DNA from: a virus
Direction: 5' to 3' (one strand)
Length of the DNA: 43,347 nucleotides
IMG/VR virus record: IMGVR_UViG_3300017991_000031
Coordinates: 1 to 43,347 of that record
Shown here: positions 1 through 42,160 of the stretch, one piece after another
Layout: the number at the start of each line of letters is the position of its first letter
Position numbering within the stretch: the first letter of the stretch is position 1
The notes under the pieces: generated by a model
What the model saw: only the letters and a program-made list of their open reading frames with translations
What the model was told of the DNA's origin: nothing
The model's database searches: none
Program-made: the position numbers and the translations under genes

Positions 1-123
1 CAGGGCGGTCGCGATGGTGGTGACGCCTATCGATCCCCAGGCCACCATCTCCCAGAGGACCGGGTCGATCTCGGTGGCGAACAGGGCCGCCCCGCCGGCC
101 ACACCGGCCGCGGCAAGCACCGC
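1..123. repeat. Terminal direct repeat, left copy (circular overlap)
   Basis: Bases 1-123 are identical to 43225-43347. An exact terminal repeat of this size is what an assembler leaves when a circular or circularly permuted molecule is written linearly; a true short terminal redundancy is the alternative. The minus-strand gene crossing the join stays in frame when the two copies are merged, which favours a circle of 43,224 bp. Confidence 0.95.
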
Positions 124-174
124 GAGACCGGCGGCCAGCACGCCGAAGGCGACGATCGTCGTCGTGTGTTTCAT
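1..174 (-). CDS. Small two-helix membrane protein (N-terminal part; continues at 43159-43347)
   Basis: The start codon is at 174-172 on the minus strand and the protein begins MKHTTTIVAFGVLAAGLAV. It runs off base 1 and resumes at 43224 after the duplicated 123 bases are merged, ending at 43159, for 79 residues. A GGGAG motif lies about 8 bases before the start. There are two hydrophobic stretches, roughly residues 6-33 and 45-68, joined by a short acidic loop, and a short basic tail. This fits a small inner-membrane protein with two helices. It is the first gene of the leftward unit that continues into the CI-like repressor and diverges from the Cro-like gene. A superinfection-exclusion role fits this position and a holin role fits the shape; neither is shown. 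Confidence 0.75.
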   Translation of the reverse strand, partial: MKHTTTIVAFGVLAAGLAVLAAAGVAGGAALFATEIDPVLWEMVAWGSIGVTTIATAL

Positions 175-230
175 CGCGGGCACTCCCGCCCCAGTCTAAC
201 CGCCCGCCGCCGGGCGATCTTCCTGACCAG

Positions 231-280
231 AAAAAAACTAAAAAAGATGCTTGACTCGTGCAGTGACCTGCTCGTATCGT
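231..280 (+). promoter_or_regulatory. Rightward early promoter for the Cro-like gene
   Basis: TTGACT at 251-256 (5 of 6 to the -35 consensus) and TATCGT at 275-280 (4 of 6 to -10) are separated by 18 bases. The A-rich tract at 231-248 just upstream could serve as an UP element. It lies between the divergent starts at 174 (minus) and 310 (plus), where a lambda-type early promoter and operators are expected. A GC hairpin (CGCCCG/CGGGCG) lies near 202-218. Confidence 0.6.
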
Positions 281-309
281 TCATTTGGCTGAACAAAGGA
301 TGCAGACAC

Positions 310-531
310 ATGCACACGTACGACGTTGCCAAACTCGAGCGGGCCCGGCGGGAGCAGGGCCTGCGGCAGCAGGACCTGGCGGACCGGACGGGCAAGTCCG
401 TCTCGACGATCCACAAGGTCCTCGCCGGCCGCAGCCACGCCGTCCGCACCGTCAAGCTCGTGGCCGACGCGCTCGGCGTGCCCATGGACCAGGTTGTCGT
501 CGAGGCCCCGCGGGCCAAGGAGGTGGCGTAG
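310..531 (+). CDS. Cro-like XRE-family HTH regulator
   Basis: A 73-residue protein beginning MHTYDVAKLERARREQGLRQ. Almost all of it is one Cro/C1-type helix-turn-helix: LRQQDLADRTGKS is the first helix pair, VSTIHKVLAG the recognition helix, and VKLVADALGV the closing helix. I chose ATG 310 because AAAGGA precedes it by about 9 bases and a promoter ends 30 bases upstream. It is the first gene of the rightward early operon and faces the minus-strand repressor unit, the arrangement of cro against cI. Its DNA targets are probably operators in the 175-309 gap. It ends in TAG. Confidence 0.85.
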   Translation: MHTYDVAKLERARREQGLRQQDLADRTGKSVSTIHKVLAGRSHAVRTVKLVADALGVPMDQVVVEAPRAKEVA

Positions 532-7937: not shown

Positions 7938-9404
7938 ATGCCACGGAAGGCCGCGGGGAGCGGTGAACAACCAAAGGCGCCAGCACGTGCCGGAACCCAT
8001 GGCAAAAGGGCCTGGCACATCGTCGGCTGGGAGCGGTGCTACGAGCCGGCGGACGATCTGCGGCGGGGGCGCAAGTCGCCGCTGCCGTTTGTCAAGCTGC
8101 TGACCGGCGCCGGCGACCAGGGCGGCCGCGAGGCCGAGCAGATCGCACTGCAGCTCAAGGCCCTGCGGGCCGAGCCCGACGGCCTGCTGCACGAGGCGAT
8201 CTGGACGCGGATTCTGTGCAGGGCCGGCAGCCGGGCGAACCGGCGGGGATGGCTGCTGCGGTTCGACGACGAGCCCGCCGCCGTCAGGGACATCGCCATG
8301 ATGATAGACGCACCGCCCGATCAGGTCCGCTTGTCGCTGGACGTCCTCGAGCGGCTGCAGTTCATGGAGCGCGTGCCGATGCCCAACGGCTCGCCGGGCC
8401 CCGACGGCGACGACCGCCCCGGCAAGGGCCGCCCGGCCGGGCCTGCCAAAAAACCGCGTAAACAGGCGGCGAAATCGCCCCGCAAAGCCAAGCCCAAGGC
8501 GCCGAAGAAACAACCTGCCCGCCGCTCGCGGGCGAGCGCCGGCGCCCCGCGGGCGAGCGCCCGCGAGCGGCGGGCGACCGCGAGCGAGGGTTATAATGTG
8601 AACGGGGAACGGCTTCGCCAACGAGAACGGCTTGCGCCTGAACCTGAACCCGAACGGCTTGCGCCTCAACCCGAACGACCAACGGCCCCGGCGCACGGCA
8701 ACGGCTCTAACAGCGCGCGCGCAAAAACGGCTACGGCTAAGCCGGGCGATGGTAAAGACCAAACCCCGCAAGCCCCTCAACCCGCTTGCCGCGACGACGG
8801 ACAGCCAAGCCGAGCCGGAGCCGACGAGCCGACGACTGCCGACCCCCGTGGGGCGTTAAGCGGCGACACGGACTGCCAACCGACGTCCAGCCCACGCCCC
8901 ACGGGATCGGTTTCTCGCCACGAATCCGCCGCCGACCCTCCCGCTGGCGCCCGTTCGCCCCCCGCTTCGCCCGAGGCCCCGCCGCCCGGGGCCGCCGTCC
9001 CGATCGTCGGCACGCCGCCCGGCATGGCCATGCGGACCTACGCCGAGATCTACGTCAGCGGATCTGCCGTCACCCGTGCGTTCCGGGCCCGTTGCAGCGC
9101 CGGCGGCGCCGACGTCCCCCGCGACGAGGCCGAGTTCGCCGTCCGCGAGCGGGCGTGCTTCGAGGCGGCGTGGGCGGCGGTCCTGTCGCTGGGGCTGGGC
9201 GCCCAGGACCTGCTGGTCCTGATGGGCAAGGCCTCCAAGGAGGCCCGGCGGATCAGCCGCCGTTCGACGCCGTGGCGCAAGGGGCCCGGGGCCGCCTGGC
9301 GGCACTGGCTGAATCAGCACATGGAATCCGACGCCGGCGTCGGCCGGGCCCGCTGGAGGCGGGCGGCCGGCGGCGCGGCGGCAACTGCAAGGAGCGCATC
9401 GTGA
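7938..9404 (+). CDS. Putative replisome organizer with long disordered linker
   Basis: 488 residues. Residues 25-155 (WHIVGWERCYEPADDLRRGR ... PFVKLLTG ... LSLDVLERLQFM) look like the winged-helix domain at the N-terminus of phage replication proteins. Residues about 165-360 are low complexity (Lys/Pro/Ala-rich, with repeats such as RLAPEPEPERLAPQPERP) and lose the usual third-position GC. The C-terminal 120 residues form a second helical domain. A winged helix, a linker and a C-terminal domain just before a ParB-like gene suggest an origin-binding or helicase-loading protein, as in lambda O/DnaD types; this is inference. An internal TTATAAT occurs at 8591-8597. Confidence 0.5.
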   Translation: MPRKAAGSGEQPKAPARAGTHGKRAWHIVGWERCYEPADDLRRGRKSPLPFVKLLTGAGDQGGREAEQIALQLKALRAEPDGLLHEAIWTRILCRAGSRANRRGWLLRFDDEPAAVRDIAMMIDAPPDQVRLSLDVLERLQFMERVPMPNGSPGPDGDDRPGKGRPAGPAKKPRKQAAKSPRKAKPKAPKKQPARRSRASAGAPRASARERRATASEGYNVNGERLRQRERLAPEPEPERLAPQPERPTAPAHGNGSNSARAKTATAKPGDGKDQTPQAPQPACRDDGQPSRAGADEPTTADPRGALSGDTDCQPTSSPRPTGSVSRHESAADPPAGARSPPASPEAPPPGAAVPIVGTPPGMAMRTYAEIYVSGSAVTRAFRARCSAGGADVPRDEAEFAVRERACFEAAWAAVLSLGLGAQDLLVLMGKASKEARRISRRSTPWRKGPGAAWRHWLNQHMESDAGVGRARWRRAAGGAAATARSAS

Positions 9405-11332
9405 CGACGACAACGAGATCGCGATCATCGAAGGCCGCATCGAAGCGCCGCCGCCGCGGCGAGCCGGGCCCGGCCAAGCCCGCCGGCGGCGACGACCCGG
9501 GCCTCGGCCGCATCGACCCGGAGGCGCTGCCGCCGACAGGGACCGTCTACACCCTCGAGATCGCCGCCGGCGAGTACGACCCCCGCGACGATAGCCTGGC
9601 GGCCGTCGCCAGTTGGGCCGACATCGAGTTCGACGGCACCGACGGCGGGCGGCTCCGCGTGCAGCAGCGCCGGGGCGACCAGGAAGTGTGCGTCTACATG
9701 CCCACTGTCAACGACTGGAACCGCAACTGGGCCCGGCTGGTCATCAAGGTTGCCGCCCCCGTCGGCCGGCCCCCGCCGGCGGAGCCGGCCGAGGAACACG
9801 CCGCGGAATTGCCGACCTTGGCCGGCCAGGGCAAAGGCGAGCGAACTCCGGCCGCGACCACCATGCTCGTGCCCGTCGAGAAGATCGAGGTCCGTGCCAA
9901 CAGCCGCCAGGACTTCGACGCGGCGCTGCTGGTCGACCTGGGCAACTCGATGGCCGAGCTGGGCCAGCTCCAGCCGATCGTCGTGGCCCGCCGGGCGATC
10001 GACGGTCATCTGGTCCTCGTCGCCGGCGAGCGGCGGATGAGGGCGGCCAAGGCCAACAACGACGAGCTGATCGAGGCCCGCGTGTACGACAACCTCGACG
10101 AGCGGACCATCGTGCGGATGCAGCTGGCGGAGAACTTCGCCAGGACGGACCTGAACCACATGGAGATCGCCGCCGCCCTGGGCCGCCTGGCGGACGCCGG
10201 CCTGACCGTCCAGCAGATCGCCGCCGAGGTCCACAAGGGCGCCGACTGGGTTCGCCGCCACCTGGGCCTGCTGGAGTTGGCCGAGCCGGTCGCCGACCAG
10301 GTCGCCGCCGGCCGCATCCCCCTCAAGCACGCCGAGCTGCTCGGCCGCATCAAGGACCACGACCAGCAGATGGGGCTGGCCGCCGAGGCGATGGGCCTCG
10401 ACTCCTACGCGTCGGCCGGCGAGAAGGTGCCCCCGGCCAAGCGGCTCGAGGAGGCCGCAGCATCCCCTGGCGACGGCCTGATGGCCGTGGATGACCTCCG
10501 CGACAGCATCGGCTACACGCTCAAGCGGCTGGGCCACCACCTCTGGCCGATGGACGGCGGCTACGCCGGCCAGCGCGCCTGCGTCGGCTGCCCGGACAAC
10601 ACGGCGACAGAGCCGGCGCTCTTCGATCCCGCCGAGACATGGGGCAAGCGAGACCTCGGCATCTGCCTCAACACCGCGTGCTACAAGGCCAAGCAGAAGG
10701 CCTGGAAGAAAGACCCGGCCTACAAGGAGCAGAAGGCCCGCCAGAAGGCCGAGCGGGCGAGCGTCCGCCCGTCATCGTCGCGGCCGAAGCGAGACACGCC
10801 CTTCCCGCACAGCCCCGCCGAGCGCTACGCCGTCGCCCTGAACGAGCACGCCGTGGCCGTCCTCACGGCGATCCGCAAGCACGTCGCCAAGACTCCCGAC
10901 GACAAACTCCCCCCCGACGCCGCTCCAACCCTCATGCGCCTTGCGGCGGCTTCGACCTCGGCCAGCGGCAACTGGACGCTGCTGAGCATCGACGTGGGCA
11001 AGATCCGCGGCAAGCTCGGCGAGATGAAGCAGCTGCTCGACGGCGATGGTGCGATCTCCTGGCTCGCCGGCCTCGCCCGGCCGCTCGGAGAGGCGATTCG
11101 TCTGGACATCCAGCAGCCCAGGTACGCCGAGTACGCGCACAGGGTCTACGGCGTGCCCGTCAGCCGCAAGGCGGTGCAGTGGATTGACTGCCTCGAGGCC
11201 CTCTGCCGGCGGTGGAAGATCGACTACCCCAAGCGACCCACCAAGGCCGACTTCCCCGCCAAGCCCAAACCCAAGGCGGCGAAGAAGCGCACCAAGCCCG
11301 CCACCAGCAATCGCAAGAAGGCCACGAAATGA
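9401..11332 (+). CDS. ParB-like protein with Cys cluster
   Basis: 643 residues from GTG 9401, 6 bases after AAGGAG. Residues about 150-330 are a ParB/RepB core: VPVEKIEVRANSRQDF, LGQLQPIVVARR, VAGERRMRAAKAN and QLAENFARTDLNHMEIAAAL, followed by a KorB/ParB-type helix-turn-helix (LTVQQIAAEVHKGADWVRRH). A cysteine cluster RACVGCPDNTA ... GICLNTACYKAK follows, as in many phage-borne ParB-like proteins. The N-terminal 110 residues are an extra domain and the C-terminus is Lys-rich. Roles could include plasmid-like partition of the prophage, replication control or regulation; no ParA partner is present in this genome. Confidence 0.8.
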   Translation: MTTTTRSRSSKAASKRRRRGEPGPAKPAGGDDPGLGRIDPEALPPTGTVYTLEIAAGEYDPRDDSLAAVASWADIEFDGTDGGRLRVQQRRGDQEVCVYMPTVNDWNRNWARLVIKVAAPVGRPPPAEPAEEHAAELPTLAGQGKGERTPAATTMLVPVEKIEVRANSRQDFDAALLVDLGNSMAELGQLQPIVVARRAIDGHLVLVAGERRMRAAKANNDELIEARVYDNLDERTIVRMQLAENFARTDLNHMEIAAALGRLADAGLTVQQIAAEVHKGADWVRRHLGLLELAEPVADQVAAGRIPLKHAELLGRIKDHDQQMGLAAEAMGLDSYASAGEKVPPAKRLEEAAASPGDGLMAVDDLRDSIGYTLKRLGHHLWPMDGGYAGQRACVGCPDNTATEPALFDPAETWGKRDLGICLNTACYKAKQKAWKKDPAYKEQKARQKAERASVRPSSSRPKRDTPFPHSPAERYAVALNEHAVAVLTAIRKHVAKTPDDKLPPDAAPTLMRLAAASTSASGNWTLLSIDVGKIRGKLGEMKQLLDGDGAISWLAGLARPLGEAIRLDIQQPRYAEYAHRVYGVPVSRKAVQWIDCLEALCRRWKIDYPKRPTKADFPAKPKPKAAKKRTKPATSNRKKATK

Positions 11333-14727: not shown

Positions 14728-14772
14728 ACGCCGGAGACTACCGGCGTGGATTTGAGATTTGAGATTTGAGAT
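14728..14772. repeat. Intergenic element A1: hairpin plus TTTGAGAT repeats
   Basis: ACGCCGG (14728-14734) and CCGGCGT (14741-14747) form a 7-bp stem with a 6-base loop, directly followed by three TTTGAGAT-type units to 14772. It lies between the terL stop and the next start. Same design as the other A elements listed below. Confidence 0.7.
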
Positions 14773-16478: not shown

Positions 16479-16694
16479 ATGAGCACGGCAGCCGAGCAGT
16501 TGGCCGCGATCGAGACGGTCATCGACGCCCGCCTGAGCGGCGGGGCCATCATCCGCCACAGCTCCCTATCCATCTCCTTCGAGAAGGAATCGCTGACGGA
16601 CCTGTACAAGATCCGCGACCGCCTGGCCGCCCAGGTCGCCCGGCAGAATCGCGGCATGTTCCGCTACGCCCGCATGGACCAGGCGGTGGACTGA
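16479..16694 (+). CDS. Head-tail joining protein, gpW-like
   Basis: 71 residues, close to lambda gpW (68). It starts MSTAAEQLAAIETVIDARLS and has ESLTDLYKIRDRLAAQVARQ. The two-helix layout with a hairpin between and the place immediately before the portal are those of gpW, which closes filled heads. It ends TGATG, coupling to the portal start. The 112 bases before it hold no gene; a CCAGTACTGG palindrome lies at 16424-16433. Confidence 0.75.
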   Translation: MSTAAEQLAAIETVIDARLSGGAIIRHSSLSISFEKESLTDLYKIRDRLAAQVARQNRGMFRYARMDQAVD

Positions 16695-17704
16695 TGGCCC
16701 GCAAGCCCCTACCTCCGCCCACGACGTTCCGGGGCGTCGAGATCTACGCCCACGAGCCATTCCCCCGGGCGGCGCGCATGCTCGACGGCGTGGTTTCCGC
16801 GATCTCGCCACGCCGCGGGCGGCGCCGCCTGGGGGACAGGTTCCGGGCGTCCGTGGGCTACGACATCGCCCGGTCAGGTCGGCACCGGCGGGGCTACTCG
16901 ACCGCCGGCGGCTCGGGCGACCAGCACCTGAACTCGACCACGCTCAACAGGATCCGCGAGTGGTCCCGCGGCCAGGAGCGGAACAACTGCATCTACGACG
17001 GCATCCTCGCCCGCGACGTCGACAACGTGGTCGGCAGCCACTTCGGCTGGCGCCCCAACACCAAGGATCCCGGCTGGAACGAAGCGGCCGCCGAGATCGT
17101 CAAGACCCGGATGGCCGCCGCCGACGCCGGCGGCAGGTGGGATTTCCAGGGCTGGCTGCGGATGATGGTCCGGACGCTCGACCGCGACGGCGACGCCCTG
17201 GGCGTGTTCGACGCCGACGGCCGGATCGTCACCTACGAGGCCGACCAGCTCGCCACGCCCCGGGACCGCAAGGCTTCCGGCAGGCGCATAGTCAACGGCG
17301 TCGAGCTGGCCGACGACGGATCCGCGACGGCCTACTGGGTGGCCCCCCGGTCCAACAACGGCTGGGTGGACAAATCCAGCGAGGCCGTCCGCATCGACGC
17401 CCGCGACTGTGTGTTTCCGGCCTATTACAAGCGGACCTCGCAGACGCGGGGGATTCCCATACTCGGCAGCGGCGCGGACATCTTCGAGCGACTGGATGGA
17501 TACCTCGACAGCGAGACCTTCGCCGCCTGGGTCAACTCCTGCCTGGCGATGTTCATCAAGAAGTCGCCCGAGTACACGGACTCGACCTCGGCCGGCCCCG
17601 GCCAGGAGATGCAGGCCAACGCCGAGGGCACCTATGACCTGCTGCAGAAGTTCGACCGCGGCATGGTCATGGACCTCAACGTCGGCGAGGAGGTCGAGGC
17701 CTAG
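16694..17704 (+). CDS. Portal protein, lambda gpB-like, N-terminal part up to an in-frame TAG
   Basis: 336 residues to the amber codon at 17702. It includes SRGQERNNCIYDGILARDVD, MMVRTLDRDGDALGVFD, RTSQTRGIPILGSG and GMVMDLNVGEEVEA, the order of elements of gpB-type portals. The same frame continues after TAG with TPGRPQSNFESYVTAVLRFI, exactly where homologues continue, so the full product would be 515 residues including the recoded codon (lambda gpB is 533). It forms the dodecameric ring through which DNA enters. A portal truncated at 336 would lack the clip-to-crown region and should not function. Confidence 0.85.
   Translation: MARKPLPPPTTFRGVEIYAHEPFPRAARMLDGVVSAISPRRGRRRLGDRFRASVGYDIARSGRHRRGYSTAGGSGDQHLNSTTLNRIREWSRGQERNNCIYDGILARDVDNVVGSHFGWRPNTKDPGWNEAAAEIVKTRMAAADAGGRWDFQGWLRMMVRTLDRDGDALGVFDADGRIVTYEADQLATPRDRKASGRRIVNGVELADDGSATAYWVAPRSNNGWVDKSSEAVRIDARDCVFPAYYKRTSQTRGIPILGSGADIFERLDGYLDSETFAAWVNSCLAMFIKKSPEYTDSTSAGPGQEMQANAEGTYDLLQKFDRGMVMDLNVGEEVEA
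17702..17704 (+). other. In-frame amber codon inside the portal gene
   Basis: TAG interrupts codon 337 of the portal frame (GAG-GCC-TAG-ACG-CCC). At least eleven other genes in this genome end at TAG followed by non-coding DNA or another frame, so genome-wide reassignment is unlikely. Possible causes are a substitution (from CAG, TTG or similar), a read error, or partial read-through by a suppressor. Confidence 0.9.
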
Positions 17705-18241
17705 ACGCCCGGCCGGCCGCAATCCAACTTCGAGAGCTACGTCACCGCCGTCCTGCGCTTCATCGGCTGCCCGATCGGCATGCCGCTGGAGCTGATACTG
17801 CTGGACTTCAGCAAGACGAACTACAGCAGCGCCCGCGGCGCACTGCAGCAGGCGTATCGGGCCTTCCAGGTCCGCCAGGAGCACGTCAAGGCCAGCATCT
17901 GCCAGCCCAGCTACCGCCAGTGGATCGGCCGGGCCGTCCGCTCGGGGGACCTGACCGTCCGCGACGACATGTTCGCCTGCGTCTGGTATCCGCCCCGGTG
18001 GCCGTGGATCGACCCGCTCAAGGACGTCATGGCCGAGGAGCGTGCCGTCGCCGGCGGGATGCGGACCTTGCAGGAGATCGCCGCCCGCGAGGGCCGCAAC
18101 ATCATGGAGTTGATGGCCGAGCGGGCCGAGGAGCTGCGTTTCGCCCGCGCCAACGGGATCCCCCTGTCGAACGCCCCGGACACACTGGCCGCCACAGACG
18201 ACGAGGAGGCAGCCGACCATGCCGCTTCCGACACCAAATAA
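17705..18241 (+). CDS. Portal protein, C-terminal part after the amber codon
   Basis: 178 codons in the portal frame, beginning TPGRPQSNFESYVTAVLRFI and containing LLDFSKTNYSSARGALQQAY, the strongly conserved DFSKTNYSSAR block of gpB-type portals. An ATG at 17780 could start a separate 153-residue piece, but no ribosome binding site precedes it. It ends TAA, overlapping the protease gene by 23 bases. Confidence 0.8.
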   Translation, partial: TPGRPQSNFESYVTAVLRFIGCPIGMPLELILLDFSKTNYSSARGALQQAYRAFQVRQEHVKASICQPSYRQWIGRAVRSGDLTVRDDMFACVWYPPRWPWIDPLKDVMAEERAVAGGMRTLQEIAAREGRNIMELMAERAEELRFARANGIPLSNAPDTLAATDDEEAADHAASDTK

Positions 18242-23194: not shown

Positions 23195-23563
23195 ATGAGC
23201 GTCCTGGACACACAGATCGCGACCGACCTTGCCAACGTCATGGCCGACGTCGGCCGCGACGTCACCTACACGCCCGCCGGCGGCTCGGGCACGACCGTCT
23301 CGGCCATCGTCCCACCGTACCGCAAGGCCGTCGACGACTACGACGAGACCAGCCGCGAGGCCTACCGCTCCGTCGAGATCATCGTCCAGATCTCCGAGGT
23401 CGCCACGCCCGCCATCGGCGACCAGTTCACGTTCGTCGACCTCACCTGGGCGGTCACCGAGATCGCCGGGATCAGTTCCGCTTACGCGATCCTCCGCCTG
23501 CTCGAGGTCCGCAGGTCGCGGACGCAGACCTCCGCCGGCGGATACAAGGACATGCCCAGATGA
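23195..23563 (+). CDS. Head-tail connector/joining protein candidate
   Basis: 122 residues. Strand-rich: VGRDVTYTPAGGSGTTVSAI, then REAYRSVEIIVQISEVATPA and DQFTFVDLTWAVTEIAGI. This short all-beta pattern and the place downstream of the capsid fit the head-completion (gpFII-like) or stopper proteins. The final codons (MPR and TGA) enter a repeat B copy. Confidence 0.55.
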   Translation: MSVLDTQIATDLANVMADVGRDVTYTPAGGSGTTVSAIVPPYRKAVDDYDETSREAYRSVEIIVQISEVATPAIGDQFTFVDLTWAVTEIAGISSAYAILRLLEVRRSRTQTSAGGYKDMPR

Positions 23564-23646
23564 TCCGCAGATTCCGCAGATGCTCGCAGATAGCAGCAGG
23601 AGCTGCTTTTGTTCTGCTCTGCGCGAATCTGCGCAATCTGCGGATA
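23563..23646. repeat. Dispersed repeat B, full hairpin copy
   Basis: The left arm ATCCGCAGATTCCGCAGA and the right arm TCTGCGCAATCTGCGGAT are inverted repeats matching at 17 of 18 positions, separated by about 50 bases that include AGCAG/CTGCT. The unit begins within the stop codon of the upstream gene and ends 18 bases before the next start. Confidence 0.8.
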
Positions 23647-23663
23647 GATCGGGAGCCCTGCGG

Positions 23664-27145: not shown

Positions 27146-27194
27146 TATGAGATTTGAGATTTGAGATCTTAAATTCAGCCGCCACAGGCGGCTG
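27146..27194. repeat. Intergenic element A6
   Basis: ATATGAGATTTGAGATTTGA and on to TTAAATT, then CAGCCGCC-ACA-GGCGGCTG (27176-27194), an 8-bp stem with a 3-base loop directly before AAGGGAG. Confidence 0.8.
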
Positions 27195-28387: not shown

Positions 28388-29932
28388 ATGGCTGACGTAG
28401 TATTCAAACTCGATGCCGAGTCGGCCAAGGCCGTCAGGGCCTTCCTGCAGCTCGACGAGGCCCAGCGCAAGGTGGAGCTGTCGAGCAAGCGGGCCACCGG
28501 CCAGACCAAGCAGCACGGCAAGGCGATGAATGACCTTGGCCGCGGCGCCATCCGCGACCTAAAGGGAATCGTCACGGGGTTCGTCAGCGTAACCGCCGCC
28601 ATCGGCGCCGTCCGCTCGGCCTGGCGGATCTGGCAGCAGGACATCGCCGCCAGCGTCGCCAGCATGAAGCAGTTCCAGGCCGAGTTTGTCAATCTCCAGT
28701 TTCTCGGCCAGAACTACAGGGACCCCAACCTTCGGGGCCGCATTCACGAGATGGCCGTGAAGTATGGAATCCCCGCCGAGGAGGTCACCGCGGGCAGATA
28801 CGCGCTGCAATCCATGGCCGGCTGGATGCCGCCGGCGGAGCGCGAGCGGGCCGTGATCGAGGCGATGCGGATGCGGCCGACGAGCAAGGTCACGGTGCCC
28901 GAGCTTGCGCCGACGTTCGCCAAGATGCGCTTTCACTACCGCGACCTGTCCGCCAGGCAGGCGGCCAACATGACCCAGCGGATGTTCGAGCTGGCCGCGA
29001 TCGCCGAGCCGACAGAGCTGGCCAACTACGCGCCGCGGATGTTCGCGGCCGGGCGGCTTGGTGGCCTCTCGGCCACCGAGGCCGCGGGCTTCGGGGCCTT
29101 TATGACGATGGGCGCGGGGACCGCGGCGCAGGCCGCCAGCGGCATGGACATCGTTATGCGCCGGCTGACGCTACAGGATCCCGAGGCGAAGGCGGCGATG
29201 GAGCGGGGCGGCTGGAGCCGCGCCGCCGGCAGTGTCAGCCGCCGCAAGGCCATCATGGCCAGAGCGGGCATCAGCGCCGCCGACTCCGGCCTGACCAGGT
29301 TGTACAAGGTCGCCGACCTGCAGCGCCGCGGCGGGCTCACCAAAGACGAGATGGGCTTACTGTTCGGCGAGAAGGGCTTGAAGTACGGCTACATGGCGGC
29401 CGAGCACGCCGACACGCTGCGACGGGTCGTCGCCGACTTCGCTGCGACGACGGGTCCCGACATCGACATCGCTGGCGAGAAGATCGGTACGGCAGTGCGG
29501 ACCGACCCGACCTACCGCCGTTCCCGCGCTGCCGCCCGCCTAGCCGCGAGGCAGGCTGCCGCCCGGCAACAACCCGACAATTTGCTGCGAGAGAATTTCG
29601 CCGAGGCCTTGGAGGCCGTTCGCCTGGAAAAGGGCGGAGGCGTGGGCGCGGTCGTCCGTAATTGGATTTATAGGGCGACGATGCATCTCCCCGAGTCAGT
29701 GGTCGGGCCCATGGGGCCTGAGATGACCACAATGCTTGCTCGGCAACTGGACGACAAGTCGGGCGATCCTACCGAGGAGGCGCGACTAGAGGCCGCGCGC
29801 ATGCTTGGCCTGGCGGTCGACAAGCTGGACAAAGTCGCCGACAAGCTCAACGCCAAGGCCGAGGGCGCCAAGAAATTCAACGCCCACGTCGAGCCCGAGT
29901 CCGCCGGCGCCGGCGGCGGAGACGGATATTGA
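28388..29932 (+). CDS. Tape measure protein
   Basis: 514 residues. It starts MADVVFKLDAESAKAVRAFL and is long and helical with coiled-coil-like segments (DEAQRKVELSSKRATGQTKQ), a hydrophobic stretch LKGIVTGFVSVTAAIGAVRS near residue 65, and a C-terminal helix LGLAVDKLDKVADKLNAKAE. The start follows AAGTAGG. Its place directly after the G/GT pair identifies it. At about 0.15 nm per residue the tail would be near 77 nm, short for a siphovirus. The TGA lies in repeat B. Confidence 0.75.
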   Translation: MADVVFKLDAESAKAVRAFLQLDEAQRKVELSSKRATGQTKQHGKAMNDLGRGAIRDLKGIVTGFVSVTAAIGAVRSAWRIWQQDIAASVASMKQFQAEFVNLQFLGQNYRDPNLRGRIHEMAVKYGIPAEEVTAGRYALQSMAGWMPPAERERAVIEAMRMRPTSKVTVPELAPTFAKMRFHYRDLSARQAANMTQRMFELAAIAEPTELANYAPRMFAAGRLGGLSATEAAGFGAFMTMGAGTAAQAASGMDIVMRRLTLQDPEAKAAMERGGWSRAAGSVSRRKAIMARAGISAADSGLTRLYKVADLQRRGGLTKDEMGLLFGEKGLKYGYMAAEHADTLRRVVADFAATTGPDIDIAGEKIGTAVRTDPTYRRSRAAARLAARQAAARQQPDNLLRENFAEALEAVRLEKGGGVGAVVRNWIYRATMHLPESVVGPMGPEMTTMLARQLDDKSGDPTEEARLEAARMLGLAVDKLDKVADKLNAKAEGAKKFNAHVEPESAGAGGGDGY

Positions 29933-30024
29933 TCCGCAGATTACGCAGATTGACGCAGAACAAGAAACAGCATCGCTCCACTGCTTCTTCTGTGCTCTGC
30001 GCGAATCTGCGAAATCTGCGGATA
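29932..30024. repeat. Dispersed repeat B, full hairpin copy
   Basis: The left arm ATCCGCAGATTACGCAGATT... and the right arm ending ...AATCTGCGGAT match as inverted repeats over 25 of 28 positions, with a 37-base centre. It overlaps the tape measure stop and ends before the next start at 30042. Confidence 0.85.
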
Positions 30025-30041
30025 GATAAGAAGGCCTGCGG

Positions 30042-35069: not shown

Positions 35070-35840
35070 ATGATCCCGATCCCGGTCATTGCGTCGCCGT
35101 TGTGGCCTGCTCCGGCGGCGGGCAGGTTCCTGCAGACCCGCCCGCCCCGCGGCCGCGTCCGCGTCGAGGCCGCGTGGCGCGGCCAGGTCCGCGTCGCCGA
35201 CGTCGACTCCGCGCAGTTCGAGCTGTTCCGCGCCGTCGACGGCGACGCCTTCGACTTCGACAGCCCGTGGGAGACGTTCACAAGCCTACCTCACACCACA
35301 GCCGCCGTCGCCGCCAGTCACGACTACGAGTTCGTGTTGCGGCTGGTCAACCGATGGGGCCTGTCCAGCCTGAACATCGCGGCCTGGTCGGTGACTGCCG
35401 ACGCCCTCGGCGCCGCCGATCCCGTCCCGCCGAGTTCGCCTCGCGACGTCACGATCGAGCCGGCCGCCGGCGGCGAGCTGCGGATCCGGGCAAGCTACGA
35501 CTACGACGCCGACGCCGCCGACGACCTCGACGCCACGGTCTGGCTGATCTACCTGAGCACCGACGGCAGCGACCCCGACACCGGCGGGGCCCCGACGACG
35601 GTCACGATGCGCAAGGCCGACGGGACCGCCAAGCTGGACTACACGACCACCGGCGAGTCCCTGGCCGATTTCCAGCTCGCCAAGGTGATCGTCCGCGTCC
35701 GCCGCGTGGACGCGGGGCCCGAGAACGTGGACTCGACCAACACCGACGTCGCCTCGGCATGGGCCCTCGCCACCGGCCCGCCGCCGCCGTCCTGGTCCGC
35801 CGTCTACCACAACGGCAGCCCCGCGAGGCAACAGAGATGA
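35070..35840 (+). CDS. Fibronectin-III-like tail protein
   Basis: 256 residues. The leader MIPIPVIASPLWPAPAAGRF resembles that of the protein at 33437. Then two Fn3-like modules: VADVDSAQFELFRAVDGDAF ... YEFVLRLVNRWGLSS, and PSSPRDVTIEPAAGGELRIR ... KVIVRVRRVDAG. Such modules are usual in phage tail tip proteins and bind surface sugars. The stop codon enters repeat B. Confidence 0.55.
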   Translation: MIPIPVIASPLWPAPAAGRFLQTRPPRGRVRVEAAWRGQVRVADVDSAQFELFRAVDGDAFDFDSPWETFTSLPHTTAAVAASHDYEFVLRLVNRWGLSSLNIAAWSVTADALGAADPVPPSSPRDVTIEPAAGGELRIRASYDYDADAADDLDATVWLIYLSTDGSDPDTGGAPTTVTMRKADGTAKLDYTTTGESLADFQLAKVIVRVRRVDAGPENVDSTNTDVASAWALATGPPPPSWSAVYHNGSPARQQR

Positions 35841-35922
35841 TCCGCAGATTTCGCAGATGCTCGCGGAGAGGACAGCGACGGATCGTTTCCGTCATCTGCG
35901 CCCATCTGCGCAATCTGCGGAT
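35840..35922. repeat. Dispersed repeat B, full hairpin copy
   Basis: ATCCGCAGATTTCGCAGATG on the left and TCTGCGCAATCTGCGGAT on the right form an inverted pair; the centre holds GACGGATCGTTTCCGTC, a second small hairpin (GACGGA/TCCGTC with an adjoining loop). Confidence 0.8.
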
Positions 35923-35943
35923 GAAGCATAGGGAGCAGCAACC

Positions 35944-36156
35944 ATGGCGCACACACTGAAGATCGCGTTGACCGTCACCGACGAGGACACCGGCGTCGAG
36001 ACCGTCGCCAACGAGTACGTCGAGCGGAACGTCTCGCTGCCGCAGGTGGTGGCGATGGAGAAGGCCCTCGTCGGCGTCCTGTCCGACCGCCTGGCCGTCA
36101 CCGCCGGCAAGCTGACGACCGACGCCCCGGCCCGGCCCAAGCGCCGCCGGCGATAG
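35944..36156 (+). CDS. Hypothetical small protein
   Basis: 70 residues starting MAHTLKIALTVTDEDTGVET, then EYVERNVSLPQVVAMEKALV and a basic end RPKRRRR. A beta hairpin followed by a helix. It precedes the peptidase gene, whose strong AAGGAGG lies 16 bases after its stop. Unknown role. Confidence 0.55.
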   Translation: MAHTLKIALTVTDEDTGVETVANEYVERNVSLPQVVAMEKALVGVLSDRLAVTAGKLTTDAPARPKRRRR

Positions 36157-36186
36157 TGCCGCCCCAGCGGCAAGGAGGCCGCTGTG

Positions 36187-37386
36187 ATGAAGGCATGGAC
36201 GCCAACACTGGCCGTTGCGCTGCTGATCTGCCCACAGCCGGCAGCCGCCGACACGTATGCCATCATGTTCCAGGGCGGCTGGTTCCCATGGGCGGACGCC
36301 GGCTTTTTCGCGGCACAGGTCGACCTCTACAACTGCATGCTGGCATCGGGCATCCCGGCCGGCCGGATCTGGGCGTACGAGGGCGACGGCGTGATCGATC
36401 CCGCCAATCCCAACTGCAACGTGATGTCCCGCGTCTGGTACGGCGGGCACTACAGCGAGGAGCTGTTTCCCATGCTGTACGATTCGCCCGTCGACTACGA
36501 CGGCGACGGTTTGGCCGATGTCCGCGGCGCCGGCACCGCCGCCAACCTGTTTGGGGCCCTGTCCCAGGTCGGCGAGCTGATGGGGCCCGACGACGGCCTG
36601 ATACTCCAGATCGGCGATCACGGCGGGGCGGATCCGGCCAGGTTCGGCGCCTGGCTGCACGAGTCGATCTATTGGTCCGACGTCGCCGCCGCACTGGACG
36701 CGATCCCCGCCTACGCCCATCAGCTCGTCATCGTCGGCACATGCCACGGCGCGGCGTCCTTCGAGCACCTGGCCACGCCCGGATCGCGGCGGGTTATCAT
36801 CTCCGCATCAACGGCGGACTATTACTCGTGGTATCGCATGCCGACCTATTACTGGTGCGGCCCCCGCCACCTGGAGCTGGCCGCCGAGGGAGGATCCGGT
36901 TTCTTGACGGCGCTGTGCGCCGGCGCCGCAAGCGGCGACCGGAACGCCGACGGCCTGGTGGACGCCGCCGAGCTGTACCAGTACATCTGGGCCCACGACG
37001 AGTTCGGCCCGAACGGATCCTTCGATTGGACCCTGTACCCCGGCTTCTATTGCGAAAGGCCTCAATTCGCCGACCCGGACGGGATCGCCGGCGAGCTGAT
37101 CTGGGCCCACGGCCGGCTGGTCGGCGGCGACGCCAACCTCGACGGCCTGGTGGACATCGCCGACCTCGCCGCGCTGGCGACCCACTACGGCCAGACCGCC
37201 GCGACGTGGGCGATGGGCGATTTCTCCGGCGACGGCGACGTCGACGTCGGCGACCTGGGCATCCTCACGCGCAACTACGGCCGCCGCCCCGCGCCGCCGG
37301 CCGGCGTCCCCGAGACGGAGATGCTCCTGCCGCTGGTACTATTGCCGATCATCTGTGCCCGCCGGCGAGGTCCTTCATGGATTTGA
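36187..37386 (+). CDS. Secreted legumain/caspase-like cysteine peptidase with dockerin repeats
   Basis: 399 residues from ATG 36187 after AAGGAGG. Residues 1-21 are a signal peptide (ends PQPAAA). The catalytic region has ILQIGDHGG with His145 and VIVGTCHGAASFE with Cys186; both lie after hydrophobic strands as in clan CD (legumain, caspase, gingipain) enzymes, and the 41-residue gap equals that of legumain. Residues 250-267 (DRNADGLVDAAEL) are EF-hand-like, and 313-365 hold two dockerin-type calcium loops (GDANLDGLVDIADL and GDFSGDGDVDVGDLG). The end, VPETEMLLPLVLLPIICARR, is a PEP-CTERM-like sorting tail. This is a host-type exported protein inside a tail operon. Its stop codon lies in an A repeat. 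Confidence 0.75.
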   Translation: MKAWTPTLAVALLICPQPAAADTYAIMFQGGWFPWADAGFFAAQVDLYNCMLASGIPAGRIWAYEGDGVIDPANPNCNVMSRVWYGGHYSEELFPMLYDSPVDYDGDGLADVRGAGTAANLFGALSQVGELMGPDDGLILQIGDHGGADPARFGAWLHESIYWSDVAAALDAIPAYAHQLVIVGTCHGAASFEHLATPGSRRVIISASTADYYSWYRMPTYYWCGPRHLELAAEGGSGFLTALCAGAASGDRNADGLVDAAELYQYIWAHDEFGPNGSFDWTLYPGFYCERPQFADPDGIAGELIWAHGRLVGGDANLDGLVDIADLAALATHYGQTAATWAMGDFSGDGDVDVGDLGILTRNYGRRPAPPAGVPETEMLLPLVLLPIICARRRGPSWI

Positions 37387-37423
37387 AATCTCAAATCTCA
37401 AATTCAGCGACCGGAGGTCGCTG
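37381..37423. repeat. Intergenic element A10
   Basis: ATTTGAAATCTCAAATCTCA and AATT (37381-37404) contain the stop codon of the peptidase gene. CAGCGACC-GGA-GGTCGCTG (37405-37423) follows as an 8-bp stem; the GGAGG inside it is the ribosome binding site of the next gene, so the hairpin could hide it. Confidence 0.85.
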
Positions 37424-37425
37424 AC

Positions 37426-39489
37426 GTGCCTAACCAGGTCCAGATCGGAGCACCCGCCGCGCCGACGGAGCTGACCGTCCGCCAGCCGATGGTGCAGGTC
37501 CGCCCCACGTGGTCCGACGACTGGGGCGTGATCGACTACCTCGAGCCTCTCACCTGGGAGCAGGCCCTCGCCCCCACCGTCACCCAGGCCCGCTTCCGCT
37601 GGGCCTACGGCACCATCACCCGCCCCGACGCAGCAGAGGCGGTTTATGCACCCGGCCTCGACGAGATGATCGGCTGGTTCGTCCGCATCATCCGCCAGCC
37701 CGCCGCCCAGGGCCAGCCGGCGACCGTCCTGTGGACCGGCCAGATCTCCGCGTCGGCCGACCACGTGGGCGGCGACGACATTGGCGGCGAGCCGACCGGC
37801 GACGAGGTCGTCACCGCCCGCGGCCTGGAGTCCATCCTGGCCCGCCAGGACGTCTGCCAGAGCCACGTCGAGGGCGTCGCCGACGCCCTGACCATCATTG
37901 ATACGCTCTTGCCATTCAACCTCCGCCACCGCAACGGCAATTCCCTGATGGGCAACCGCTCGACGGCCAAGGTCGCCGGGGCGTACCTGTTCAGCGCCGA
38001 CGGCGAGCTGTGGAGCGCCCGCGACGTGGCGGAGTACCTGCTGGCCCGCTTCAGCCCGGCCGACATGCCGTTCACCCTGGCCGGCCAGCTCGACAACCTC
38101 GACCTTGTAGTCCGGACGTTCCGCGGCACCTGGCCGACGCTGTTCCACGCCCTCAACGCCGTCATCGACCGGCGTCGCGGCCTGTGCTGGTGGGTGGACG
38201 CCAGCGGCGGCGATCCGCAGGTCCGCGTCGCCAGCGTGTTCGATGAGCCCGCCGCCGCCGGCGGCAGCCAGGTGGCGCCCAACACTGACCTGATCGACGT
38301 CGTGACCACCGGCGCCGGCTCGACGGCCAGGTCCGTCACCATCGACCGCACGCTCGACGCCCACTACAGCCGCATCGAGGTCCGCGGCGAGCCGATCGTG
38401 ATCTGCGCCAGCGTCGCCGTCGACGGCGGCACCCTCGCCGCCGGCTGGTCGGCCGCGCAGCAATCCGCCTACGAGGCGGGGGCGTCGGCCATCCAGGGCT
38501 ACGCCGACCTCGACACCGCCGTCAAGGCCGTCCGCAACGACCAGGCCCGCGCCCGCGACATCTACCGCCCCGTGTTCTGCCGCTTCGCCGTCCCGGCCGC
38601 ATGGGCCTTCACCGACCGCAACGGCCGCAACGTCGCCCCCTCGCCACGCCTCGACGGCACGCTCGACACGGCCGTCAACGCCGGCGGCTTTTGCCACGGC
38701 AAGAGTTTTCTGCGGCAGCTGCCCCTGCAGGTGGGCCGGACGTACCACACCGCCGCGGCGCCCGTCCTTGCCGACGCCTCCGCCGGCGACGAGTTCGTCC
38801 CGCCGCTGGTGGTCGCCCGCGTCCCCGTCAGCGACGAGCACGCGCCCTATCTGCCCCTGGACCGCCTCAGCGAGTGCATCCCGGGGGCGCCCTCGATGCC
38901 CATCCGCACGCTCGACGGCGAGCTGGGCTTCGAGGTCACCGCCAGGCCGAATTACCTGCTGGCCCTGAATCACTGGTCGGGCGAGCCGGGCACGTGGCCC
39001 CCCCAGATCGACTACGACACCATCGTCGCGACGATGGCCTGGGAGTCCGACCAGCACGTCAACTGCCAGGTCGCACTGCCTGCCGCCGGCAACTGCCCGG
39101 TGGCCCGGACGCTGCTGATCCACGTCCCCGACGCCGAGCTGTGGTGGATGCCGGCGGGCACCGTCACCGACGTCAGCGACTCCGGCGACCTGCTCGTCAC
39201 GCCCGCGGACATGGTCCTGCGGGACGATTCGGAGAAACTGCGGATCGTGGCGGCCCTGGCCCGCAGCTGGTACGGCCGCGTCCGCCGCGCCGTGACGGTG
39301 GAGATGGCCGACCTCGCCGCCGAGTGGCGGCCCGGCGCCATCGTCCGCCAGCTCCACGCCGCCGGCCGGTGGTACCAGATCGGCACCATCGTCAGCCGCG
39401 TCCGCTGGGACGCCTCGTCGGCCACCACGACCGTCCAGACGGATTTCGCCGAGCTGGACTTCGTTGCCGCCGCGGGGGTGAGGCCATGA
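37426..39489 (+). CDS. Baseplate hub / tail-tip protein
   Basis: 687 residues from GTG 37426. The N-terminal part has VQVRPTWSDDWGVIDYLEPL, MIGWFVRIIRQPAAQGQPAT and VVTARGLESILARQDVCQSH, resembling the hub domains of gpD/gp27-like tail proteins that read R-G-L-x-x-I-L-x-R. The C-terminal half has ELWWMPAGTVTDVSDSGDLL and YQIGTIVSRVRWDASSATTT. Long, beta-rich and late in the tail operon. The name is based on these resemblances. Confidence 0.55.
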   Translation: MPNQVQIGAPAAPTELTVRQPMVQVRPTWSDDWGVIDYLEPLTWEQALAPTVTQARFRWAYGTITRPDAAEAVYAPGLDEMIGWFVRIIRQPAAQGQPATVLWTGQISASADHVGGDDIGGEPTGDEVVTARGLESILARQDVCQSHVEGVADALTIIDTLLPFNLRHRNGNSLMGNRSTAKVAGAYLFSADGELWSARDVAEYLLARFSPADMPFTLAGQLDNLDLVVRTFRGTWPTLFHALNAVIDRRRGLCWWVDASGGDPQVRVASVFDEPAAAGGSQVAPNTDLIDVVTTGAGSTARSVTIDRTLDAHYSRIEVRGEPIVICASVAVDGGTLAAGWSAAQQSAYEAGASAIQGYADLDTAVKAVRNDQARARDIYRPVFCRFAVPAAWAFTDRNGRNVAPSPRLDGTLDTAVNAGGFCHGKSFLRQLPLQVGRTYHTAAAPVLADASAGDEFVPPLVVARVPVSDEHAPYLPLDRLSECIPGAPSMPIRTLDGELGFEVTARPNYLLALNHWSGEPGTWPPQIDYDTIVATMAWESDQHVNCQVALPAAGNCPVARTLLIHVPDAELWWMPAGTVTDVSDSGDLLVTPADMVLRDDSEKLRIVAALARSWYGRVRRAVTVEMADLAAEWRPGAIVRQLHAAGRWYQIGTIVSRVRWDASSATTTVQTDFAELDFVAAAGVRP

Positions 39490-40819: not shown

Positions 40820-40851
40820 AATCTCAAATCTCAACTCTCAAATCTGAGATC
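40816..40851. repeat. Intergenic element A12 between convergent operons
   Basis: TCTGAAATCTCAAATCTCAA through CTCAAATCTGAGATCC. It holds the stop codon of the last tail gene on the plus strand and of the integrase on the minus strand, so it may act as a two-way boundary. Confidence 0.7.
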
Positions 40852-41935
40852 CTCCCCCCGTCACCGCCTCGACGTCCCCGTCGTAGCCGGGCGCCAGGTG
40901 GGCGTATCGCATCGTCGTGGCGATCGACGCGTGCCCGGCCCATTCCTTGATCTTCACCAGGGCCACCGCCGCGGCGGCCAGGCGCGAGCAGTAGGTGTGG
41001 CGCAGCAGATGCCACGCCGAGCCGGTCCCGCGGACCTGGCGGAACACCGGCATTGGCTCCCGGAGCGGATCCAGCCCCGTCCGCCACCAGTTCCGCGATC
41101 GGTGGAACACCCGCCCTGAATTCCGCCGTCGCCGGGCCAACAGCTCGACCAGTTCCGCCGGCATGGGGATGGCCCTGGGCGAGCCGCTCTTGCTGGTGGG
41201 CAGGACGATGGTCCTGTCGGCCCATCGGACGTCCGCCCAGTCCAGCGCCGCCAGCTCGCCCTTGCGCATGCCCGTCCACAGCGCCGTCCGGACTTCATCG
41301 CCGCACCCGGCCGCGTCGGCCAGCTCGATGGCCTGGCGGTACTCATCCTCGCGGAGCCACCGCGGCGCCGGCAGCTCGACCCGCGGGGCCCGGACATCCC
41401 GGGCCGGATTCCGCCCGAGCAGCCCCCGGACGACCAGGTATCGGCAAAAGCCGCTGATCGCGGCGCGGCCCTTGGCGATGGTGGACGGCGACAGGCCGTC
41501 GGCCTGGAGCTGCCGCAGGTGTGCCTCGACGGCGGCGGCCGTGATCTGCTCGGCAATAGAGATATCTTGGTCGGCGAGGAACGCGGCGATCTTGGCGGCG
41601 TTGCGGTCGACCTGCCCCGGCGCCGCCGTCCGCAGGTTATGGGCGCGGTAGTCGCCCAGCAGGGCCCCCAGCGGCCCCAGCTCGCCCCTGCCGGCCGATC
41701 GGGCCTTTCGTCGGCTGGCGGGTCGGCCCTTGCGCCGATCGTTGACCTGGCGTGCGGACAGGCCGCTGGCGCGTATCTCCGCCGCCAGGAGCCTGGCGAC
41801 CTGCAGGTCGGCCGTCGCCCGCGTCTGGCCGGCGGGCACCAGGGCGAGGCGTTGGGGCCCGAGCCCCGGCAGGTACCACTTCAGCCACCATCGCCGCCCG
41901 CGTCTGTACAGCCCTCGATCTCGTTTGCCTGCCAT
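40838..41935 (-). CDS. int: Tyrosine-type site-specific integrase
   Basis: 365 residues from ATG 41935 with GAGGG 5 bases upstream. The frame stays open to 42082, but that extension (MPKWRNWQTRGIQKA...) is translated tRNA sequence, so I reject it as start. The N-terminus MAGKRDRGLYRRGRRWWLKW is an arm-type DNA-binding module and residues 90-180 are the core-binding helices. Catalytic residues: Arg224 in GMRKGELAAL, Lys249 in TSKSG, His309 and Arg312 in HLLRHTYC, His335 in GHAS, and nucleophile Tyr344 in MRYAH. It recombines attP at 42042 with a host tRNA-Leu gene. Two direct repeats lie just before its start, hinting at self-control. Confidence 0.9.
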   Translation of the reverse strand: MAGKRDRGLYRRGRRWWLKWYLPGLGPQRLALVPAGQTRATADLQVARLLAAEIRASGLSARQVNDRRKGRPASRRKARSAGRGELGPLGALLGDYRAHNLRTAAPGQVDRNAAKIAAFLADQDISIAEQITAAAVEAHLRQLQADGLSPSTIAKGRAAISGFCRYLVVRGLLGRNPARDVRAPRVELPAPRWLREDEYRQAIELADAAGCGDEVRTALWTGMRKGELAALDWADVRWADRTIVLPTSKSGSPRAIPMPAELVELLARRRRNSGRVFHRSRNWWRTGLDPLREPMPVFRQVRGTGSAWHLLRHTYCSRLAAAAVALVKIKEWAGHASIATTMRYAHLAPGYDGDVEAVTGGGSQI

Positions 41936-41948
41936 CCAACCCTCGAAA

Positions 41949-41972
41949 TGGGGCACAGTTTGGGGCACACTC
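41949..41972 (+). promoter_or_regulatory. Left arm-type repeat pair (integrase side)
   Basis: TGGGGCACAGTT and TGGGGCACACTC sit head to tail with 12-bp spacing, 13 bases before the integrase start and 69 bases from the attP core. They match the right array at 42211. Confidence 0.7.
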
Positions 41973-42041
41973 TCCGCCCCGCCCACCGCAGCCCCTTGCC
42001 CCCCGGCCACTTGCGCCCGCCGAAAACCGGCCCTCACGGCC

Positions 42042-42080
42042 TTTTGAATCCCGCGCGTCTGCCAATTCCGCCACTTCGGC
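42042..42080 (-). other. attP: attP core: 5' half of tRNA-Leu(CAA)
   Basis: Read on the minus strand, these 39 bases run GCCGAAGTGGCGGAATTGGC and on through the anticodon loop ATTCAAAA: acceptor 5' strand, D arm and anticodon CAA of a bacterial tRNA-Leu. Homology is lost right after the anticodon loop; no T arm follows. This is the usual length and position of a phage core identical to its attB tRNA gene. Because it is the 5' half, insertion would rebuild the tRNA with phage DNA upstream of it. Confidence 0.8.
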
Positions 42081-42160
42081 ATCTATTCGGATGTCAGGAA
42101 CTTAGGGCGATTCTTCGCACAAGTGTCTGATGCGGCCGAGACTTGTCTGCTCGACACAAA

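Follow-up and report, generated by a model that had tools for sequence, protein, structure and literature searches.

What is a gene for a legumain-like, apparently exported protease doing among the tail genes of a phage? The gene lies in virus record IMGVR_UViG_3300017991_000031, the whole 43,347 bases of which we refer to as the window. A sequence-only reading of the locus had offered three roles for its product: remodeling of the lysogen's surface, exclusion of rival phages, and service in the tail tip. We examined the origin, fold, and surroundings of the gene. With a fair measure of confidence, we favor the view that it is a moron encoding a Sec-exported, C13-like protease, which would be held at the membrane or surface and would modify the surface of the host cell.

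The protease gene is phage-borne

The record is viral and carries a perfect 123-bp repeat at both ends. It encodes a lambda-type portal protein, an S49 head protease, the large terminase subunit, and the major head protein. A tyrosine integrase gene (40838..42082, minus strand; 65 bits to PF00589, and phrog_1) indicates a temperate lifestyle, and a repressor-like helix-turn-helix gene (1..531, plus strand; phrog_1373 and phrog_4583) is open at the start of the record. Most likely, the record represents the entire genome of a temperate phage; the protease gene is borne by the phage rather than by a stray host contig. The portal protein is split, with ORFs at 16694-17704 and 17780-18241 matching consecutive parts of phrog_21; several relatives also match in two pieces. 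Elsewhere in the window, an 848-aa ORF (8786-11332) contains a ParB-like domain and a helix-turn-helix in its middle.

The protease gene itself (36187..37386, plus strand; 399 aa) is an intact and real coding sequence, as stated earlier, with a GTG at 36184 as an alternative start. Its codon usage is that of the other phage genes, and we therefore rejected codon usage as a sign of recent foreign origin. Directly before the start is a hairpin, CAGCGGC-AAGGAG-GCCGCTG (36165..36184, plus strand), whose loop contains the ribosome binding site; the Shine-Dalgarno sequence AAGGAGG at 36172-36178 bears out the strong site described before. Perfect hairpins of the type CAGCnnn..GCTG were found four times in the window (at 27176, 34569, 36165, and 37405), as opposed to 0 to 2 in 30 shuffles. 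All four are located just before gene starts; their stem sequences differ, and two of them hold the ribosome binding site in the loop. Neither a sigma-70-like promoter nor a matching terminator was recognized for the protease gene, although planctomycete promoters may differ. Since the codon usage is phage-like and the hairpin is one of only four in the window, these features suggest that the gene is settled in the phage.

The space separating the protease stop from the next gene contains an AT-rich intergenic repeat and a hairpin (37381..37423, plus strand). The repeat has 22 overlapping matches in the window and none in 100 shuffles. The gene had been said to end in the phage's own repeat. 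The repeat does follow right after the stop codon, but the phage shares it: the 18-mer AAATCTCAAATCTCAAAT is present in 40 copies in the planctomycete genome G090. AT-rich heptamers (ATTTGAGATTTGAGATT and its complement) mark gene junctions at 14749, 22183, 23164, 24222, 26142, 27144, 30449, 30800, 34541, 37386, 39907, and 40819 in a genome that is otherwise 69% GC. As a control, we counted the reversed repeat, TAAACTCTAAACTCTAAA, and found 72 copies in G041 and 50 in G165, both planctomycetes without a copy of the unreversed form. Another family of intergenic repeats, ATCCGCAGAT...ATCTGCGGAT, folds into long hairpins at 2520, 7315, 15437, 16336, 23558-23659, 29927-30037, and 35835-35936; for the segment 35836-35945, the fold is -52 kcal/mol (z = -4.9).

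The protein contains a C13-like protease domain

The predicted protein begins with a Sec signal peptide (residues 1-21; 36187..36249, plus strand), recognized from its sequence and hydrophobic stretch. The leader reads MKAWTPTLAVALLICPQPAAA in the protease ORF and is followed by D, with cleavage predicted after AAA; the signal peptide claimed earlier is therefore present. The protease domain spans residues 22 to about 300 (36250..37086, plus strand), as delimited by homology and structure models, and in the homologues it likewise begins directly behind the leader.

Scans with Pfam, NCBIfam, and PHROGs named no protease family for the phage protein itself, and PF01650 (family C13) did not match it at E <= 1. 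A search of nine named planctomycete genomes with the single phage sequence also gave no match; a profile was therefore needed, and the empty search shows nothing more. In 392 planctomycete genomes, we found a distant relative, L043 (E = 2.7e-6), which links the phage protein to a known family: it passes the Pfam cutoff for C13 (30.1 versus 22.8 bits), and among PDB structures it hits plant legumains (E = 2.4e-6). A two-sequence profile had matches in 22 of the 392 genomes. We built a profile from 12 planctomycete homologues, leaving the phage protein out. The phage protein scored 39.9 bits against it, the best of 5,000 shuffled versions of the phage domain reached 6.9 bits, and the list of matches contained no further frame from the window. 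Identity between the phage protease and its relatives is low, at 15-22%.

Five residues, G68, D136, H145, C186, and E262, are invariant in the alignment of the phage protein with the 12 planctomycete homologues, and all but G68 were kept in a second, trimmed alignment. Asp136 is encoded at 36592..36594, the predicted catalytic His145 of the HGG motif at 36619..36621, and the predicted catalytic Cys186 of the GTCHGA motif (mostly xxCxSG in homologues) at 36742..36744, all on the plus strand. His145 and Cys186, each at the end of a predicted strand and each invariant in 13 sequences, are the dyad that had been picked out from the letters, and its conservation extends to every one of the 12 homologues. 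Immediately after the nucleophile, the phage protein has CHGA, whereas nearly all homologues have CxSG. Because of this replacement, protease activity is to be held as predicted only.

In AlphaFold models of the full-length protein and of the isolated domain, H145 and C186 each stand at the end of a strand; in the full-length model, H145-G146 follows strand 137-144 and C186 follows strand 178-185. All 50 PDB matches that Foldseek listed for each model were legumain/C13 enzymes, GPI transamidase included, with best E values of 7.5e-9 and 1.3e-6 for the two models and a Foldseek probability of 1.00. The mean pLDDT was modest, 61 for the full-length model and 63 for the domain, because the loops and the tail were poorly predicted; core strands of the full-length model reached about 85-96, and the domain-only model was no better. 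Among predicted viral structures, only giant-virus caspases and metacaspases matched at E < 0.001. The caspase-haemoglobinase fold was found in both models, and membership in clan CD is secure. Judged from the models and from the intermediate sequence L043, the nearest family is C13; we call the protease C13-like because the phage protein fails the C13 model. The sequence-only reading was to fall if a model lacked this fold or if His145 and Cys186 varied among homologues, and neither was seen. Its legumain/caspase-like, phage-borne enzyme with the makings of an exported protein is thus supported by independent homology, by conservation of the active site, and by both structure models.

The C terminus resembles a planctomycete surface cassette

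The protein has three calcium-type loops, and we rejected the view that all of them are dockerin loops. The first, DRNADGLVDAAE (residues 251-262; 36937..36972, plus strand), belongs to the protease domain, since dockerin-free homologues share it and E262 is invariant. Only residues 314-366 (37126..37284, plus strand) form a dockerin-type pair (type I), which matches planctomycete tails. The pair is borderline, scoring 22.5 bits against PF00404 in the whole protein and 22.9 bits in the tail alone (cutoff, 22.9); both of its calcium loops are present.

Residues 374-399, VPETEMLLPLVLLPIICARRRGPSWI (37306..37383, plus strand), align with the VPEP tails of planctomycete proteins. They consist of VPET, the hydrophobic stretch EMLLPLVLLPIICA of about 14 residues, which is the most hydrophobic segment of the phage protease, and RRR. 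As first described (PMC1569441), PEP-CTERM has a nearly invariant Pro-Glu-Pro, then a run of 14 strongly hydrophobic residues, and a basic terminus; the phage tail has the hydrophobic stretch and the basic end but not Pro-Glu-Pro. Neither TIGR02595 nor PF07589 matched it. Five bacterial tails belonging to this type of cassette, by contrast, passed TIGR02595 with 19.5-26.1 bits (cutoff, 16). With VPET in place of Pro-Glu-Pro and both curated models failed, a proven PEP-CTERM tail was rejected, and the earlier description of the C terminus as PEP-CTERM-like survives in its layout only.

Together, the dockerin pair and the last 26 residues make up a cassette often found on proteins of planctomycetes. 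Its elements are, in order, GDANxDGxVDxxD, ATWAMGDFxxDGxVxxxD, VPEP, a hydrophobic segment, and Arg/Lys. The phage version is 38-53% identical to planctomycete tails, and most bacterial matches to the cassette carry VPEP. A scan of genome contigs returned dockerin-tail matches only. It is plausible that the tail anchors the protease in the membrane; sorting by an exosortase is uncertain.

Because both the cassette and the protease homologues point to the Planctomycetota, the host is probably a planctomycete. The genome G001 (Pirellulales, reached through L002) has 82 PEP-CTERM matches and a related capsid gene and is without the AT-rich repeat. G090, which is rich in the 18-mer, showed no PEP-CTERM protein and no match to protease profile A3. 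The host is identified by neither genome.

VPET at the tail and CHGA at the nucleophile depart from the family and might be the first signs of decay in a captured bacterial gene that has no present use to the phage; that the protease is known from one phage only in the searches made here would agree with this. However, the 399-codon frame is intact, the leader and the invariant residues have been kept, the codon usage is phage-like, and the phage's start-site hairpin is present. We regard decay as improbable.

The gene is inserted between two tail genes

The position between tail genes was described correctly from the start. Upstream lies a gene similar to that of tail fiber protein J (35070..35840, plus strand; phrog_31, E = 4.7e-4), with homologues in relatives, and downstream a 687-aa tail gene that is conserved in relatives (37426..39489, plus strand). 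The gap between the J-like gene and the protease gene contains a small ORF of 70 aa (35944..36156, plus strand) with no counterpart in the relatives read. Six relatives show both flanks, three of them in planctomycete genomes (L064, L065, and L067) and three on viral contigs (L131, L134, and L137). In all six, the J-like gene adjoins the 687-aa tail gene and the protease is absent. The junctions were read base by base in L064, L065, and L067, where the tail genes are separated by nothing (their codons overlap), by about 15 bases, and by ~160 bases of small repeats, respectively. These relatives are distant, with about 29-42% identity in the two flanking tail proteins, and L064 matches the J-like gene weakly (E = 0.003). 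Nor did the protease profile match any of the eight further viral contigs that carry the 687-aa tail gene. Since the flanking genes are adjacent without the protease in six of six relatives, we take the protease gene to be an insertion, or moron; the same relatives led us to reject the protease as a standard tail component.

Could the enzyme nevertheless act in the virion? Placed in the tail tip, it would digest a protein surface layer of the host at adsorption, and its leader and tail would be bacterial leftovers. The gene sits inside the tail operon, adjoins the J-like gene and the 687-aa tail gene, and shares the direction of the late genes and the start-site hairpin. Against this, the six relatives have the tail-gene pair without it. 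Moreover, tail proteins of virions normally lack a leader and a membrane segment at the C terminus, and the protease has kept both. Because relatives do without the gene and both leader and anchor are present, we disfavor the tail-tip role and consider it improbable.

The late-operon position, the strong ribosome binding site, and the anatomy of an exported protease would also suit a factor that is exported late and frees progeny from the cell or biofilm by cutting proteins of the envelope or matrix. A dockerin pair and a membrane anchor are odd for a release factor, however, and the relatives complete their cycle without the protease, as far as the fragments show. Such a role in lysis or release has little probability in our judgment.

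Other phages carry candidate display cassettes

The sequence-only reading had suggested looking for the gene in other phages, and no relative came to light in GenBank phages, plasmids, or the IMG/VR contigs scanned. Searching with tblastn, we found nothing in 50,697 GenBank phage records or in plasmids with the phage protein, and nothing in phages with the domain of L043. Pattern scans of IMG/VR that used the protein itself and alignments A1, A6, and A7 detected no protease-domain relative; since such scans reach mainly close relatives, this absence is weak evidence. Family C13 is listed as absent from viruses in the table of a 2015 structural review (PMC4357240), and in the literature searched we found no paper joining PEP-CTERM, phage, and dockerin. 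Enzyme type, tail cassette, and insertion as a moron were all known before; what is new, as far as our searches went, is that they occur together and that a phage carries a C13-like protease. A phage coupling such an enzyme to the surface cassette of its host would offer a first handle on how planctomycete phages change their hosts.

A scan of viral contigs for the cassette yielded 19 loci. Three encode proteins with a leader, dockerin, and PEP-CTERM-like tail but without a protease domain (L096:9395-10270, L103:9416-10267, and L095:9659-10264). L096 and L103 are related phages whose cassette genes precede replication genes, and the tail of L103 passes the PEP-CTERM model with 17.7 bits. A dockerin pair in the middle of the protein was seen on three viral contigs (L094:1823-3988, L097:8130-10496, and L101:6282-7508); the proteins are 722-789 aa long in L094 and L097, and that of L101 is cut by the contig end.

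It is tempting, if rather unlikely, that planctomycete phages as a group place their own proteins on the host by means of the display cassette of the bacteria themselves, with its leader, dockerin pair, and PEP-CTERM-like anchor. The protein displayed here, a protease of the C13 type, a family not known from viruses, would then serve as an effector that edits the surface and thereby determines which phages remain able to infect. The three other contigs with leader, dockerin, and PEP-like tail make the display idea testable across phages, and the repeated carriage of such cassettes deserves a survey.

A proposed role at the host surface

Returning to the favored reading, the gene would be cargo that entered the genome of a temperate phage, probably one infecting a planctomycete, at the junction of two tail genes. 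Expressed in the lysogen, the cysteine protease would be exported by its Sec leader, which would then be removed, and calcium would likely hold its domain together. The C-terminal cassette, with the dockerin pair, VPET, the hydrophobic helix, and RRR, would retain the enzyme at the membrane or surface, and the His145/Cys186 dyad would cut periplasmic or surface proteins. With its surface proteins trimmed, the host cell may bind different partners, and other phages could be among them. Among the three earlier suggestions, remodeling of the lysogen surface fits best, because the enzyme is predicted to be anchored; superinfection exclusion is plausible.

Comparison with known systems

The phage protease shares its fold with family C13 of clan CD (PF01650), which comprises legumain/asparaginyl endopeptidase, peptide asparaginyl ligases, and GPI transamidase. 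Both have a leader peptide and the His/Cys dyad on the same two strands. Unlike C13 enzymes, the phage protein does not pass PF01650, shows no legumain-type prodomain, and has a dockerin tail and one calcium loop more. In the alignment with 9vsx, neither the legumain motif YRHQAD that follows the first strand nor the legumain residues ahead of the first helix could be recognized, and for this reason Asn specificity is not predicted.

Closer to home are the exported C13-like proteins of planctomycetes (L043, L069-L081, and L091), which have the same domain with G68, D136, H145, C186, and E262, and most of which have a leader. None of those read carries the dockerin and PEP-CTERM-like tail, and they mostly have QCxSG where the phage protease has TCHGA. 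Planctomycete dockerin and PEP-CTERM surface proteins, on the other hand, possess the same C-terminal cassette, but the bacterial tails tested read VPEP and pass the PEP-CTERM model, whereas the phage tail reads VPET and fails it.

Like phage morons and lysogenic conversion genes, the protease gene is a single accessory gene among the structural genes of a temperate phage and is absent from relatives. It differs from them in having no recognizable promoter or terminator of its own and in a C13-like product class that we did not find in other phages. Giant-virus caspases and metacaspases, the best matches among predicted viral structures, are also viral proteases of clan CD; they are, however, of the C14 type and come from viruses of eukaryotes.
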